From Rariglobus sp. (GTDB lineage: Bacteria; Verrucomicrobiota; Verrucomicrobiia; Opitutales; Opitutaceae), in NCBI GenBank assembly GCA_029266495.1, contig JAQSWS010000085.1, positions 1 to 35,607 of the forward strand: DNA of 35,607 bases, written 5' to 3'. Positions 992-12,736 of the stretch are shown piece after piece (within the stretch, counting starts at the first letter, position 1; each line of letters starts with the position of its first letter). The position numbers and the translations under genes are program-made. Below the pieces are notes generated by a model. That model ran no database searches, was not told where the DNA came from, and saw only the letters and a list, made by a program, of their open reading frames with translations.

Positions 992-1434
992 ACCGTCCTC
1001 TTGCCATTTTCCTCGCCCTGCTGGCCTGCGCGGCTCCCTCCGCAGCCCAAACCACCGCGCCCAAGGTCATCCCCAGCGCGCCCATCAAGAATTTCCGGCT
1101 GCCGACCTTTGATAAGGAAGGTAAACGCGCCACCTTTATGCGCGCCGGCGAAGCTCTCTTCATCACACCCACCCAAATCGAGGTGAAGGACATGCACTTC
1201 ACCCTGTTCACCAAGGACGGCACCGGCGCCTTCGATACCGTGCTCCTTGCCCCGTCCGCCACTTTTCTCACCGACCAGCGAATCGTCAGCGGCAAAGACT
1301 CCGTCCGCCTCATCCGCATCAATCTGGAGGTCACCGGCGAGCAGTGGTCCTACAACCACCTCGAGAAAAGAGTTTTGATCGGCAACAACGCCCGCGTCAC
1401 CTTTCAGGACGAGCTCAAAGACATCATTAAATGA
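988..1434 (+). CDS. lptC: LptC-like LPS export periplasmic protein
   Basis: A protein of 148 aa with an N-terminal signal sequence or anchor (hydrophobic residues 5-20, ending ..APSAAQ), followed by an all-beta region. It should be the periplasmic link between the LptBFG transporter and LptA. Sequence identity to LptC is not obvious by eye. The call rests on size, exported beta-rich nature, the word 'LPTFDKEGKRATFMRAGEA', which resembles the opening strands of LptC/OstA-like domains, and position between kdsC and lptA. The start is a GTG in the GTGA overlap with kdsC. The stop overlaps the lptA start in ATGA, so the pair is probably translated together. Confidence 0.75.
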   Translation: MNRPLAIFLALLACAAPSAAQTTAPKVIPSAPIKNFRLPTFDKEGKRATFMRAGEALFITPTQIEVKDMHFTLFTKDGTGAFDTVLLAPSATFLTDQRIVSGKDSVRLIRINLEVTGEQWSYNHLEKRVLIGNNARVTFQDELKDIIK

Positions 1435-2014
1435 ATCGCCTCCTTCTTCGCGTCTCCCCCCTCTTCGCGCTCCTCACGGCAACCACCTTTGTCCAGGCCG
1501 CCGACCCCAAGCCCGCCGCCGTTCCGGTGGTTCCCACCGTCATCACGAGCACCAAAATGGAAATGTGGAGCACGGACACCGAGACCCGCTCGGTCTTCGA
1601 GCAAAACGTCGTCGTCACCGGCACCAACATCAAGATCACCTGCGACAAGCTCGATGTCACCGCCACCCGCCTGGACGACATCAAAAACAAGGACGCCACC
1701 ATCGGCACCCTCGAAAAATTCAAGACGCTCGTCGCCACCGGCAATGTCCACATCATCCAGGGTGATCGCGAGGTCACCTGCGGCCGCGCCGAGGTGTTTC
1801 CCGCCGAGGACCGCGTCGTCCTCACTGAAAAGCCCGTCGTGATCGACAGCTCCGGCCCCTACGTTGCCACCGGCACCCGCATCGTGCTCCTCCGCGGCGA
1901 ACGCCGTCTCTTCGGCGACAACATCAAGCTCCAAGGCCCGCCCATGCGCGACCAAGGGCCCGACAAGGACAAACCGATGCAGCCTCCCGCCTCCCTTCCG
2001 CGCCTTCCGAAGCC

Positions 2015-2018
<4 letters not shown>
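1431..2018 (+). CDS. lptA: LptA/OstA-like LPS transport protein
   Basis: A secreted 195-aa protein with a signal peptide at residues 1-23 (cleavage near FVQAA). An OstA/LptA beta-jellyroll region follows, with repeated 'V..G.v.i...' strands: 'NVVVTGTNIKITCDKLDV', 'ATGNVHIIQGDREVTCGRAEV' and 'VATGTRIVLLRGERRLFGDNIKL'. LptA forms the periplasmic bridge that carries LPS from LptC to LptD. The C-terminal 25 residues are Pro/Lys-rich and probably disordered. It overlaps lptC by four bases upstream and lptB by four bases downstream (ATGA). The gene order kdsC-lptC-lptA-lptB supports the call strongly. Confidence 0.88.
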
Positions 2019-2791
<773 letters not shown>

Positions 2792-2793
2792 CA

Positions 2794-2867
2794 GGGAACT
2801 CAGGAAATCAGGAAGCCAACCTCTGTCCCTTTCCATTTCGGGTCTCTTCCTGATTTCCTGAGTTCCC
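2794..2867. repeat. 22-bp perfect inverted repeat (large stem-loop)
   Basis: The left arm 2794-2815 begins GGGAACTCAGGAAATC and the right arm 2846-2867 is its exact reverse complement, with a 30-base loop (2816-2845). It occupies nearly all of the lptB-hprK gap. There is no T-run after the right arm, so it is not a textbook rho-independent terminator. It could be a mobile palindromic repeat, a transcript-end stabiliser, or an attenuating structure. The left arm contains two near-copies of an octamer (ACTCAGGA, AATCAGGA). Confidence 0.9.
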
Positions 2868-2891
2868 CATAAAAATCTCCATCCTTCCCCA

Positions 2892-3899
2892 ATGCAAAAA
2901 GCCATCCACGGCATCACCGTCGCGCACTTTGCGGATGCCTACCGCGAGAAATTAAAGCTCGAGTTGGTCTCCGGTGCCGAGGGGGTGCACCGCCTCATTC
3001 GCGAAGGCTCCATCAACCGCCCCTCCCTCGCGCTCACCGGCTTCTTCAAATATTTCGCCAATAAACGTATTCAGGTTCTCGGTGCGGCCGAAATGACCTA
3101 TTTCAAGACGCTCCCCATCGAGAAACAGACCGCCATCCTGAATGAAATGGTCGACCGCAGCGTTCCCTGCCTCGTCCTCACGCGCAACTTTCACCCCACC
3201 TCCGCAATGGAGCAGATCTCGCGCGACCGGAAACTGCCGATCTTCCGCACGCCCATGATCACCATGAACTGGGTGAACCTGGCGACCCTCTGCATCGACA
3301 ACGAATTCGCCCCCTCCTCGACCGAACACGCCACCACCCTCGACGTGAAAGGCGTCGGCGTGATGCTCCGCGGTGATTCCGGCGTGGGTAAAAGCGAGTG
3401 CGCCCTCGCGCTCATCGAACGCGGCCATTCCCTCGTCGCCGATGACCTCACCGTCATCAAGCTCCTCGACGAACGCGACCTCATCGCCTCCAGCCGCCCG
3501 CTTAACCGCGGCTACATGGAATGCCGTGGCATCGGCATCATCAACATCGCGGAGATGTTCGGCGTGAAGAGCGTGCGGGTCGAACAACGCATCGACATGG
3601 TCGTCTCCCTCAAGGAATGGACACCCGAAGTCATCGAGGAGCGCACCGGCCTCGAGGAAAATCACTACGCCATCCTCGGAATAAGCATCCCCCATGTGGA
3701 GCTCTACGTGCGCCCCGGCCGTGACATCGCCCGTCTCGTCGAAGTCGCCGCTCTCGTGCAGGCGCTGAAAAAAATCGGCCACGATCCCGCAAAGACCTTC
3801 AACGACCGGCTCATCGCGTTCATGTCGCAACAAGCCGAGGAGAGAACCCGCATCATCAAACCCCTCGAGCGCTCGCGGCCTCCCTTCGAAACAATCTAA
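2892..3899 (+). CDS. hprK: HPr kinase/phosphorylase
   Basis: A cytoplasmic bifunctional enzyme that phosphorylates and dephosphorylates a serine of the PTS phosphocarrier HPr in response to metabolites. The N-terminal Mur-ligase-like domain spans about residues 1-130. The C-terminal kinase domain has Walker A GDSGVGKS at 161-168, a conserved His at 146, LVADD at 181-185, and the HprK signature MECRGIGIINI at 209-219. At 335 aa it is a normal full-length family member. The ATG at 2892 is preceded by a C/T-rich leader and no Shine-Dalgarno box. It lies 100 bases after lptB. Many Gram-negative bacteria with hprK lack sugar-PTS permeases and use the system for regulation. No HPr gene is visible in this window. 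Confidence 0.95.
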   Translation: MQKAIHGITVAHFADAYREKLKLELVSGAEGVHRLIREGSINRPSLALTGFFKYFANKRIQVLGAAEMTYFKTLPIEKQTAILNEMVDRSVPCLVLTRNFHPTSAMEQISRDRKLPIFRTPMITMNWVNLATLCIDNEFAPSSTEHATTLDVKGVGVMLRGDSGVGKSECALALIERGHSLVADDLTVIKLLDERDLIASSRPLNRGYMECRGIGIINIAEMFGVKSVRVEQRIDMVVSLKEWTPEVIEERTGLEENHYAILGISIPHVELYVRPGRDIARLVEVAALVQALKKIGHDPAKTFNDRLIAFMSQQAEERTRIIKPLERSRPPFETI

Positions 3900-9633: not shown

Positions 9634-9801
9634 TTACTTGATTTCCTTGTGGAGCGTGTGGCGCTTGAGGAAAGGATTGTATTTCTTCTTCTCGATGCGC
9701 TCGGTGACGGTCTTCTTGTTACGCTTGGTGAGGTAACGGGAAACGGGTTTACCCTCTTTACGGGCCTCGGTGCATTCTAGGGTGACGGTTTCTTGTGCCA
9801 T
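9634..9801 (-). CDS. rpmG: 50S ribosomal protein L33
   Basis: A 55-aa basic ribosomal protein of the large subunit. The family pattern is clear: '[25 protein letters not shown]' followed by '[20 protein letters not shown]'. Zinc-binding L33 proteins carry two CxxC pairs. Here the second pair is replaced by NPFL and only one Cys of the first pair remains (CTEA), so this is a C-minus, non-zinc form with one relic cysteine. The frame is open far upstream, but the ATG at 9801 gives the normal length. It is 62 bases downstream of the diadenylate cyclase gene on the same strand. Confidence 0.96.
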
Positions 9802-9863
9802 GGTTTTTAAATGTTGAAGGGTCAGAGCAAACGGTGCAACCTCAAAGTTTCCCCCGCGATCCC

Positions 9864-11222
9864 TCACCCGGCGGCACCCAGCTTCTTTTCCGTCAGCGGC
9901 AGCATGACCCCGCGACGGAAAAGGGTCACCTGGCCCGTGCTCGACGACACCACGATCGAGATGCACTCGGTCGCCACCGAGATCGCCGCGGCCGCCGCGT
10001 GCCGGCTGCCCAGCCCGCTCGGCAGCATGTGATCGCTGTCCGCCGCCTGGATCAGACTCCCCGCCGACGACACCACGCCGTCGCCACGGATGATGAATGC
10101 CCCGTCGATCGACGAAAACTCCTTCACCGTCTCGTCCATGAAGGGGCTCAGGATGTTCCGGTCCTCCTCTTTGTATCCGTAAAATGGATTCAACACGAGC
10201 GGCTTGATGAGCTTCTCCACCTTCGGTGCGTCGCCCACGACAAAAAGACACCCCACCGGCTTGCCTTCACGGCCCTCGACCGCCAGCTCGGTGGCGATCG
10301 CGATCACGCGTTCGAGCACCTCGGGTTTCACGTCGTCCGGCATCAGGTCGGCATGACCGGTCAGCAGCGTTTGAAACTCCCTCTCCACGTCCACGATCAC
10401 AACCGTGTCGAACTGATTGCTCCCGGCGATGCCACCCACGCAACAAACCCGGTCGCTAAAGGAAATCATTCCGCGTGTCAGCGCCACGAACATTGCGCTG
10501 CGCAGCTGGGCCAGCCGCCGCGGCGAATAAGAGCGAACCTGGATGACACCGGCAAAGTTGCCTTCCTCCTCGTCCAATTCGACGAGGTTGCGTGTCACGA
10601 GGATCGTCTTGCTTTTCGGGAACCACGCACCCGGCTCGATGCCGCCCACAAAAACATCGCCAAACACCATGATGGCACCGCATCCCGCTCCCTTGGCCAC
10701 GCGATCGGCCTCGTGGATCATCAGGCGGTTGATGCGATTTTGCTGGGCTTGGACCGGCTTGGCCAGAATACCGCCAAAACCCGCCACCAGCCGGTCAAAC
10801 ACATCGTCAGTGGTCGGGGCCTGCAATGTGGCACGAACGAGTTCCTCGTCTTTGAGCAGCCGGGCGATCGAAGCGAGCAACTGCAGGTAATCGCGGGCTT
10901 TTTCGTCAGCCAGCAACATGAACAGCAGGTGGATCTTCTCCTCGTCGACCGTGTTCTCGTTGTGAATGCCTTCGCGACTCCGTCCGATCGCGAGGATGTA
11001 GCGGCGTCCCATCTTTACGCGCACGTGCGGCAATGCCACGCCCGCGCCGAGGTAGGTCGTCATCGTGCTCTCGCGCTGCAACAAGCCGCGGAGCAGCGTC
11101 TCCTGCTTCAGATCGGGGAACTTGCTGGCGGACACCGCCAGGAGCTCGGTGAGAGCTCCCTTCATGTCCGTGCTCCGCAGGTCGATGATGCGGCTGCGGG
11201 CGATGATCTTGTCGAGTTTCAT
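9864..11222 (-). CDS. EIIA-like/PK-C-like/DAC fusion, probable c-di-AMP synthase
   Basis: A 452-aa protein in three parts. Residues 1-150 resemble a PTS EIIA domain of the fructose/nitrogen type, with '[14 protein letters not shown]' placing the phosphorylatable His at 66. The usual second active-site His, in 'E.H...LA.LA', is Tyr112 in '[13 protein letters not shown]'. Residues 155-290 look like an alpha/beta domain similar to the pyruvate-kinase C-terminal fold seen in archaeal DacZ. Residues 300-445 are a DisA_N/DAC diadenylate cyclase domain with DGA at 373-375, and SRHAAAA near 407 in place of the classic RHR. The predicted product is c-di-AMP from two ATP. It has no membrane segment. 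The ATG at 11222 is the first in frame, and homology to EIIA begins nearby. The domain combination is unusual, and activity and the regulatory input are inferred. Confidence 0.85.
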
Positions 11223-11257
11223 CGGGATTCGCCTCGCTCAGGCCGCACCGGTGGCGG

Positions 11258-11632
11258 TCACTTTTCCCACTCGAGGGCGCCCTTCTTCACCTCGTAGAAA
11301 AGGCCGAGGACCAGCACTCCGAAGAAGAACAAAATCGGCCCGAGAATCGACATGTTGGCGGCCAGAAAATCGCGGTAGATAAACGACCACGGAATCAGGA
11401 AAACCACCTCGATGTCGAAGAGGATGAAGAGCATCGCGGTGATGTAGAACTTCACCGAAAAACGCGTGTGCACCAGACCCTCGGCTTTCACGCCGCACTC
11501 GTAGGCCGTGTCCGTGATTGCGGTGTCTTTTTTGCGCCGCTCGCCCATCACGTGGCTCACGCCGACGATCAGGCAGGCCAGACCGGTGGCCAGGATGAGT
11601 TGAATGAGAAGCGGCAGATACGCGTCGGACAT
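11258..11632 (-). CDS. nuoA: NADH-quinone oxidoreductase subunit A
   Basis: A 124-aa inner-membrane subunit of respiratory complex I with three predicted membrane helices (about residues 6-27, 61-83 and 91-112). The conserved NuoA loop reads 'YECGVKAEGLVHTRFSVKFYITAMLFILFDIEVVFLIPW', including the conserved Cys and the acidic 'FDIEVVFL' segment. The length is normal. nuoB and the other complex I genes are not next to it: the upstream neighbour is a DUF362-like gene and the downstream neighbour is the diadenylate cyclase gene 35 bases away. It is therefore an isolated nuoA, or the rest of the complex is encoded elsewhere. No Shine-Dalgarno box precedes the ATG. Confidence 0.94.
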   Translation of the reverse strand: MSDAYLPLLIQLILATGLACLIVGVSHVMGERRKKDTAITDTAYECGVKAEGLVHTRFSVKFYITAMLFILFDIEVVFLIPWSFIYRDFLAANMSILGPILFFFGVLVLGLFYEVKKGALEWEK

Positions 11633-11689: not shown

Positions 11690-12736
11690 TCAATTGCCAA
11701 CCGGCACGAACCGGGCGTCCGATATCTTGCGCGATCCGACGCCCAGAATCGACGCGAACTCCAAGGTGCGAATGTCATCCGAAACAGGTTTAAAACCTTC
11801 GCGAGCCCGGTGGCGATTGATGCGCTCCAGCATGAGCGCGTCCAGCAACACCGGATCCGTGCCCAGCCAGAGAAGCGGTTCCGAAATGGTGTAGAGCGAG
11901 TTAAACCACGGTCCGCCGATAAACTGGTAGCGCTCCAGGCTCGCCAGCGTGAACATCCACGTGCCGCGCAACTCGGGAATCGCGCTCATCTCCGCCACCG
12001 CCGCCGGCGCACTCGCCGGGCTGCGAAAAAAGCGGGCCGTGTTTGACGCATTCCAGAGCGTGGCGTTGACCAGTGCACCGTTGACCCCGAGCACCGTATG
12101 ATCGGTGTAGACCGGCAGGTTGATCCAGAAATCCGCATCCACAAAAAGCGGCGTCGCCAGAAAGCTTTTGCGGTCCTCCTCGAGCGTCGTCTCGGGATCG
12201 AAGGATTCAACGCTTTTTTGCGCGAGAATCGGATCGAAACGCGAAGGCAGCGGGCTGTCGTAAAACCACACCGGATCAAAATAACGGCCGGATTCGAGCA
12301 CGTAGACCTTATGCCCGTCGAAAGCCGATTTGTTCGTCACCAAGGAAGGCAGATATCCCGTGAATCTCAGCCGCTGCTGGTTCAGTCCGACGAGAAAAAT
12401 CCTGTCCTTGGTATAACCGCGCCGTTCCAAGGCGGCGATCACCGCCTTGGTCAAGCCCAGCGGCGTGGCAAGGCCCGGTCCGGAGTCGGCGTAGATTTTA
12501 AGGCCTACCTTGCCCTTTTCACCCGGCGTGAGTTTTTGTCCCAGCGACGCCTCGAACCGGGTGATTAATTGCTCCACCTGGATCCCATAAGTTTCGTCCG
12601 AAAAATCCGTTAATTTAGCCTCCCAAATGACCGGCGACACCGGAGGCATGGTCGCAGCCGCGCTCGCACCCAATGCACAAGCGGAGCCTGCGGCGAGCGC
12701 AACCACACAAAGAAAAACGGAACGGAGATTAAACAT
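11690..12736 (-). CDS. DUF362-like exported protein
   Basis: A 348-aa protein with an N-terminal signal peptide (MFNLRSVFLCVVALAAGSACALGASA). The body resembles DUF362 family proteins: 'VGLKIYADSGPGLATPLGLTKAVIAALERRGYTKDRIFLVG', then 'VLESGRYFDPVWFYDSPLPSRFD', 'FWINLPVYTDHTVLGVNGALVNATLWNASNT' and the C-terminal 'PLLWLGTDPVLLDALMLERIN'. DUF362 proteins often act near Fe-S clusters, but I see no clustered cysteines here and assign no reaction. It is likely periplasmic. It is divergent from dnaG and lies 57 bases upstream of nuoA on the same strand, so the two may be cotranscribed. The leader just before the ATG is C/T-rich. Confidence 0.72.
   Translation of the reverse strand: MFNLRSVFLCVVALAAGSACALGASAAATMPPVSPVIWEAKLTDFSDETYGIQVEQLITRFEASLGQKLTPGEKGKVGLKIYADSGPGLATPLGLTKAVIAALERRGYTKDRIFLVGLNQQRLRFTGYLPSLVTNKSAFDGHKVYVLESGRYFDPVWFYDSPLPSRFDPILAQKSVESFDPETTLEEDRKSFLATPLFVDADFWINLPVYTDHTVLGVNGALVNATLWNASNTARFFRSPASAPAAVAEMSAIPELRGTWMFTLASLERYQFIGGPWFNSLYTISEPLLWLGTDPVLLDALMLERINRHRAREGFKPVSDDIRTLEFASILGVGSRKISDARFVPVGN

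Follow-up and report, generated by a model that had tools for sequence, protein, structure and literature searches.

The window, by which we mean the whole 35,607-nucleotide stretch of Rariglobus sp. DNA analysed here, encodes on its minus strand (9864..11222) a 452-residue protein in which an EIIA domain of the phosphotransferase system (PTS), a DacZ_P domain with a pyruvate-kinase C-domain-like (PK_C-like) fold and a diadenylate cyclase (DAC) domain are joined in a single uninterrupted frame. This fusion appears best explained as the housekeeping c-di-AMP synthase of the order Opitutales. Moreover, we consider it reasonably probable that a phosphoryl group passed from PEP through EI and HPr to His66 of the EIIA domain alters the output of the cyclase, and that c-di-AMP then acts on potassium uptake.

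The original prediction had placed one continuous frame here and had read in it an N-terminal EIIA-like domain, a PK-C-like middle domain and a C-terminal DAC domain. The frame holds at exactly these coordinates on the minus strand, and the three domain calls were right, because Pfam matches well above the curated cut-offs, NCBIfam matches and the matches of the predicted folds of all three parts support them. On the plus strand, a longer frame (9795-11297, 500 aa) overlaps the gene. A chance frame was ruled out by the three Pfam domains and the order-wide conservation, and the occurrence of the full-length protein in 41 of the 43 order genomes sampled excludes an artefact of assembly as well. 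The full-length AlphaFold2 model, built from 31 sequences of the window protein and its relatives, was middling (pLDDT 72, pTM 0.50), and we therefore left the arrangement of the domains uninterpreted. No tRNA was found in the window, and Rfam gave no match there.

The cyclase assignment of the C-terminal part is supported by both Pfam and fold. The DAC catalytic domain comprises residues 314-439 (9906..10283, minus; Pfam E 6.7e-21, 74.5 bits against a cut-off of 27), and residues 293-445 of the model resembled DAC structures, the best being 2fb5 (Z 13.5, 127 residues, 3.0 Å). Within it, the DGA motif (residues 373-375; 10098..10106, minus) and the SRH motif (residues 406-408; 9999..10007, minus) keep D373, G374, R407 and H408 in 204 of 204 alignment rows, with position 375 being A in 182 rows, G in 11, C in 9 and S in 2. 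The invariance of these catalytic residues led us to reject an inactive cyclase, and the domain is predicted from its sequence to make c-di-AMP from ATP. Among the NCBIfam models, DacZ matched the C-terminal half best (2e-34), followed by CdaA (5.6e-9), both below their own model cut-offs. For the DacZ equivalog NF041371, the match was partial (239-440) and reached 119.2 bits against 430, indicating a relative and not the archaeal equivalog itself; for CdaA (TIGR00159), it reached 35.7 bits against 188.8, and the N-terminus of the window protein is an EIIA domain rather than membrane segments.

The PK-C-like middle domain was likewise borne out, here by its fold. Pfam names this region DacZ_P (residues 162-285; 10368..10739, minus; E 2.1e-23, 82.7 bits against a cut-off of 27.4) and found it in 27 of 27 aligned members. 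When folded alone (pLDDT 72, pTM 0.68), the domain matched the C domain of the pyruvate kinase PKM2 (Z 11.3, 103 residues, 2.7 Å); a sequence profile search returned nothing credible in the PDB for it, and fold comparison alone gave a match. Cys261 of this domain (10440-10442, minus) is nearly invariant (199 of 204 rows, with 2 gaps) and could possibly be a redox or metal site in a sensor domain. One locus (L077:1103-3199, minus strand, in genome G114) joins DacZ_P and DAC to a different, long N-terminal region in a whole frame of 840 aa, of which the 698 residues searched gave no further Pfam family at E 0.01.

The EIIA domain (PTS_EIIA_2, PtsN-like) occupies residues 1-151 (10770..11222, minus), with the Pfam match itself spanning residues 18-144 (E 3.3e-20, 73 bits against a cut-off of 27). 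Residues 1-151 of the model superimposed on E. coli IIA-Ntr (1a6j) with a Z of 21.0 over 147 residues at 2.0 Å, and PtsN was the best NCBIfam model for the N-terminal part (1.2e-13), yet below its equivalog cut-off (51.2 against 138.7 bits). His66 (codon 11025..11027, minus), which the original prediction had singled out in an LPH motif, lies in G-V-A-L-P-H and aligned with the phosphorylation-site histidine of G-V-A-I-P-H in Burkholderia PtsN and of G-I-A-I-P-H in E. coli IIA-Ntr. Pfam, fold and alignment thus concur on an EIIA domain with its site histidine in place. In the 192 alignment rows whose EIIA region comprises over 120 residues, residue 66 was His in 160, Tyr in 19, Ser in 4, Cys in 4, Asn in 3, Arg in 1 and Leu in 1, the Arg row being L077, whose N-terminus differs.

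Two features of the site are consistent with an alternative in which the EIIA domain serves for docking or as a structural element and works without being phosphorylated, for instance through binding to HPr, to a potassium transporter or to the core of the protein itself, with His66 kept for fold or interface. EIIA-Mtl and IIA-Ntr have a second histidine that serves as an active-site helper. At this position the window protein has Tyr112, as do its relatives (Tyr in 175 of 192 rows), and the phosphotransfer chemistry may therefore differ. Furthermore, Tyr has repeatedly taken the place of His66 while Pro65 and Arg68 stayed, in distinct lineages of which some have EI (f66: L197, L199-L202; G428: L227) and another lacks it (g184: L125-L133, L136, L137). 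A docking role would also be in keeping with E. coli, where PtsN acts by protein contact, according to the accessible text of PMC13104625. However, 132 of the 144 rows from genomes with EI (EI-positive rows) have kept His66, and these 132 rows also retain the residues around it almost throughout (R50 in 127, E51 in 129, G59 in 124, P65 in 132 and R68 in 131), which is what a phosphoacceptor site predicts. We regard the docking module as a realistic, if unlikely, alternative.

The candidate phosphoryl donors are encoded in the same genome. Its EI has 589 aa with three EI domains and the stretch TSHAVIVAR, its HPr has both GIHARPA and VNGKSIMG, and GDSGVGKS occurs in the HPr kinase encoded in the window, all of which we take to be phosphorylation-site or P-loop motifs. 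A second EI-type match and a second EIIA match are also present. The HPr(Ser) kinase/phosphatase gene hprK, which had already been recognised in the window, lies at 2892..3899 on the plus strand (PF07475 E 2e-54; TIGR00679 above its cut-off) and is not part of the dac operon. A direct operon of the cyclase with PTS genes was rejected, since hprK lies on the opposite strand at a distance of some 6 kb and the conserved neighbours are nuoA and often rpmG. An ABC-transporter ATPase gene adjoins hprK (2015-3899, plus), an arrangement that we take to be reminiscent of the proteobacterial lptB-ptsN neighbourhood. Across the order, the N-terminal domain of EI was found in 171 of 223 genomes and HPr in 180 of 223.

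By sequence, the PTS of this genome would be one without a permease of the EIIC family searched. No EIIC match was found in the genome, and a sugar-transport EIIA was rejected on that account, even though 5 of 52 order genomes do have an EIIC match, G045 of the same genus being one of them. EIIA domains of sugar PTS are relays, and the EIIA domain could by analogy accept phosphoryl groups from HPr and hand them on to an EIIB or a different acceptor, with the cyclase as a passenger and c-di-AMP regulating PTS flux; other EIIA-like proteins do match in many genomes of the phylum. The scarcity of EIIC argues against such a relay, as does the fact that in reduced lineages the DacZ_P-DAC core outlives the EIIA domain and not the reverse, and we give this possibility hardly any credence.

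The presence of EI and the state of the EIIA site co-vary. In the 189 rows with both kinds of data, His66 was kept in 18 of 45 rows from EI-negative genomes as against the EI-positive proportion given above; counted the other way, His66 or the whole EIIA domain was missing in 27 of 45 EI-negative and 12 of 144 EI-positive rows. The twelve EI-positive exceptions (Tyr in 6, Ser in 4, Asn in 1, Cys in 1) comprise the Tyr rows of f66 (five) and G428, and six rows of f3 g24 with Ser, Asn or Cys. This count left out L077, L078, L079, L111, L141, L144 and L242-L246 (fragments, paralogues or contig-end cuts), G271, G274, G283, G247, G035, G004 and G159 (without EI data) and order genomes with an absent or weak cyclase match, and G297 was scored as keeping His66 by label alone, through a separate piece from a contig end (L144). 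A DacZ_P-DAC core without EIIA was found in eight genomes, all EI-negative, in which D373, G374, R407 and H408 stay. These cyclases come from reduced genomes (L116, L117, L119 and L120 of f82; L118, L122, L142 and L143 of f83), and three of the eight were checked by Pfam, with DacZ_P falling below its cut-off in one. No clean loss of EIIA was seen among EI-positive genomes, the cases G415, G325 and G323 having been set aside as fragments or paralogues.

The EI-negative genomes are mostly strongly reduced (39 of 45 with gene data are 0.6-1.1 Mb), so general relaxation confounds the association between EI and His66. A second, tree-based count, which also left out the fragmented assemblies G363, G405 and G468, placed 6 changes over 14.3 core branch-length units without EI against 4 over 28.5 with EI (one-sided p 0.077); the branch-length-corrected test was not significant and is only suggestive, and independent-pair tests had too few informative pairs. 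Taken together, these patterns support, without proving, the view that the EIIA site serves the PTS. The link from PTS state to c-di-AMP drawn in the original prediction is sustained in part: the donors, the lack of an EIIC match in the genome, the co-variation of His66 with EI and the restriction of EIIA loss to EI-negative genomes speak for it, and the corrected test, the EI-positive rows that have replaced His66 and the tyrosine at the second histidine position speak against it.

The same data bear on whether the EIIA domain dates from an ancestral fusion, has little function today and is slowly decaying, leaving DacZ_P alone to set the cyclase. At equal DAC identity, the EIIA domains of EI-negative rows without His66 were less alike than their DacZ_P domains in three of four bins (in the 0.7-0.8 bin 0.28 against 0.49, n 8; the 0.6-0.7 bin was opposite), and the eight EIIA-less genomes, with the core alone in f82 and f83, would fit such a decay. 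In EI-positive rows with His66, however, EIIA is nearly as conserved as DacZ_P in every DAC-identity bin, the site residues are near invariant, and the domain persists throughout the order as well as in 4 of the 245 genomes from outside. A decaying fusion therefore seems very unlikely to us, and we retain phosphorylation of His66 as the preferred reading.

A survey of 288 genomes across the phylum, with phylum (Verrucomicrobiota) and order (Opitutales) assigned through named relatives of the protein, showed the full-length architecture to be order-wide in Opitutales and rare elsewhere, its carriers outside the order being G247, G035, G004 and G159. The window protein was the only DAC match in a search of its own genome, and 39 of the 43 order genomes have a single DAC, so that an accessory second cyclase was rejected; G223 and G172 each have two DACs, and G102 and G146 have no DAC match. 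Outside the order, a DAC match was present in 238 of 245 genomes, nearly all at E of about 1e-31 to 1e-44 compared to about 1e-17 to 1e-24 within it, with G004, G179, G241 and G275 as exceptions. All nine DACs tested from elsewhere in the phylum were membrane CdaA proteins above the curated cut-off; these came from 36 loci examined, of which 15 yielded no frame to the motif script and L047 an incorrect one, and one of the nine (L046) was taken from an ORF list. Since the tested relatives have CdaA, the soluble fusion seems to hold the place of membrane CdaA in Opitutales, as a housekeeping enzyme would.

In a wider draw, 200 of 223 order genomes matched the protein; the seven with weak matches (E 7e-10 to 5e-4) were left out of the carriers. 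The best 80 named loci bear the names Opitutaceae, Opitutus, Lacunisphaera, Cephaloticoccus, Ereboglobus, Opitutae, Opitutia or Opitutales bacterium or Verrucomicrobia bacterium, apart from one titled 'bacterium' (L273) and one titled Akkermansia (L268). The latter (CAMCZZ010000001.1, an Akkermansia muciniphila MAG by title) carries an Opitutaceae-type copy with 76% identity, and its title is probably wrong. Six genomes of g19 in f3 (G102, G336, G377, G396, G437 and G443) had no match to this cyclase or, in the case of G102, just a weak one of EIIA size, and EI was found in all of them except G443. As G102 lacks any DAC match, c-di-AMP synthesis may have been lost there.

The gene neighbourhood is conserved as well. 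The gene for complex I subunit A, nuoA (11258..11632, minus; PF00507 E 2.2e-28), lies 35 nt upstream of dac and is the only nuoA match in the genome. It is found upstream on the same strand in 79 of the best 80 named loci, at a distance of up to 400 nt in 78 of them and of 526 nt in L308; the eightieth locus, L316, has only 93 nt of upstream sequence. It also stands beside dac in 58 of 59 order loci with upstream flank in a second set, the window locus included and G204 being the exception; L086 (no flank) and L243 (a paralogue) were left out of this set, which overlaps the named 80 in part. No nuoA was found beside the cyclase in 20 loci of EI-less reduced genomes (L115 with only about 230 nt upstream) or in the four full-length carriers outside the order, and seven surveyed reduced EI-less genomes (G293, G306, G307, G310, G314, G318 and G319) had no nuoA match anywhere. 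Upstream of nuoA, a conserved gene without a Pfam match (11690..12736, minus) has a relative upstream on the same strand in 68 of the 80 named loci and is possibly in the same transcription unit as nuoA-dac. Directly downstream of dac, rpmG for ribosomal protein L33 (9634..9801, minus; PF00471 E 1.6e-14) recurs within 400 nt on the same strand in 48 of the 80. The search for further DACs in the window's own genome, the genome-wide nuoA search and the counts for EIIC, the c-di-AMP riboswitch and the phosphodiesterase refer to either one genome or 52 genomes of the order.

On the output side, the genome that carries the window has a c-di-AMP riboswitch (56.7 bits; L335:3522-3691, minus, in G000:C101) some 107 nt ahead of the start listed for a permease frame of 684 aa (1360-3414, minus), whose only PDB match at E 0.001 was the KimA potassium transporter (E 2.5e-63). 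With the stricter filters, this riboswitch was found in just 2 of 52 order genomes, and a riboswitch output is thus not general. A PgpH-type phosphodiesterase was present in 45 of 52, including the window's own genome. In the reduced genome G319 (L340:262-4094), a PgpH-type phosphodiesterase gene, a LOG/lysine-decarboxylase-like gene and the cyclase gene are consecutive, which brings maker and breaker of c-di-AMP together.

From the components that can be read in the sequence, namely the domains and motifs, a sole DAC, EI, HPr and HPr kinase, the riboswitch and the phosphodiesterase, we infer catalysis, phosphotransfer, an effect on the cyclase and its sign as follows. The EIIA domain would sense the state of a regulatory PTS that has no sugar permease: EI would take phosphate from PEP and pass it via HPr, gated by HPr kinase, to His66, and the phosphorylated EIIA domain would shift its contacts with the DacZ_P-DAC core, thereby changing the output of the cyclase. 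The PK_C-like middle domain could be an allosteric or assembly module. As to the sign, we slightly prefer, with low confidence, that synthesis is permitted or stimulated by unphosphorylated EIIA and restrained by EIIA~P, because several lineages have kept the core after losing EIIA and because in E. coli unphosphorylated PtsN contacts potassium transport proteins, namely TrkA, KdpD and YcgO in the accessible text of PMC13104625. The same text describes evidence and models for the effect of PtsN on E. coli potassium levels as discrepant. In Caulobacter, EIIA-Ntr~P inhibits the SpoT hydrolase, whereby (p)ppGpp rises (PMC4848567, accessible text), which may serve, by analogy, as a precedent for control of a nucleotide messenger by EIIA-Ntr~P.

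A more elaborate reading, which we rate as distinctly unlikely, would make the protein a multi-input metabolic gauge for turgor. The EIIA domain would report PEP supply via EI and HPr, HPr kinase acting as a second gate, a glycolytic or redox metabolite would bind to the pyruvate-kinase-like domain, and the joint inputs would set c-di-AMP, which would shut KimA-type potassium import through the riboswitch. Co-transcription with NuoA would tie the level of the cyclase to complex I. The fusion would have replaced the membrane CdaA as the housekeeping enzyme of the order, and the loss of EI in reduced lineages would have let the EIIA input decay while the core was kept.

The signals that set diadenylate cyclases are a poorly resolved part of c-di-AMP biology. 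Phosphorylation of His66 by the PTS would offer a candidate signal that is legible from sequence, with a PTS acceptor domain and its donors in one genome and a riboswitch-controlled potassium importer as one output. PTS-Ntr and c-di-AMP have been studied separately as controllers of bacterial potassium and may here be one polypeptide, which would give a testable route from carbon or energy status to a messenger controlling potassium. The lineages with His66, with Tyr, Ser, Cys or Asn at this position and without EIIA form a natural panel on EIIA control of the cyclase.

Among the known cyclase classes, DacD is the one that we take to have an EIIA domain, and Galperin's 2023 'All DACs in a row' reportedly reviews all DAC architectures. 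The accessible text of Braun et al. 2019 (PMC6741144) names five DacD representatives, from Lacunisphaera limnophila, Puniceicoccaceae bacterium, Coraliomargarita sp., Verrucomicrobia bacterium and Opitutae bacterium, follows the 2013 classification of Corrigan and Gruendling for this class and gives no function for DacD. A Lacunisphaera sp. contig (L326) encodes a window-type protein with 68% identity over residues 1-447. The window protein thus probably belongs to DacD, in which case the combination is not new; the organisms listed for the class agree with this assignment, but some doubt attaches to it because the window protein is DacZ-like and Braun et al. set DacZ and DacY/CdaZ apart from the other bacterial classes. 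The literature searched, in which subscription papers were thinly covered and beyond which others may exist, yielded no account of what an EIIA-DAC protein does; PMC12974146 and PMC13022847 contributed nothing, and PMC13289029 offered general statements and the citation of Galperin. New here is the evidence on the input, output and evolution of this protein.

With the archaeal DacZ/CdaZ (DacY) proteins, the window protein shares the superfamily pairing of a DacZ_P/PK_C fold followed by DAC. The accessible text of PMC6741144 places DacZ and DacY/CdaZ in a single family that has a PK_C-fold domain, on a branch distinct from the other classes and with several bacterial proteins inside, and mentions reported activity of Haloferax DacZ. 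The window protein differs from them in falling below the equivalog cut-off, in its additional N-terminal EIIA domain, in being bacterial and in having nuoA rather than mscS as a neighbour. With CdaA it has in common the catalytic DAC fold, the DGA motif and, as we would expect, a housekeeping role, but CdaA is membrane-anchored whereas the window protein is a soluble fusion. Its EIIA domain resembles EIIA-Ntr (PtsN) in fold (Z 21), in the site histidine, in belonging to a PTS without EIIC in its own genome and in the potassium theme, and it departs from EIIA-Ntr in being fused to a cyclase and in having Tyr112 for the second histidine. PtsP, the EI of the PtsN system, has an added GAF domain, unlike the EI of this genome, which consists of the three EI domains only.
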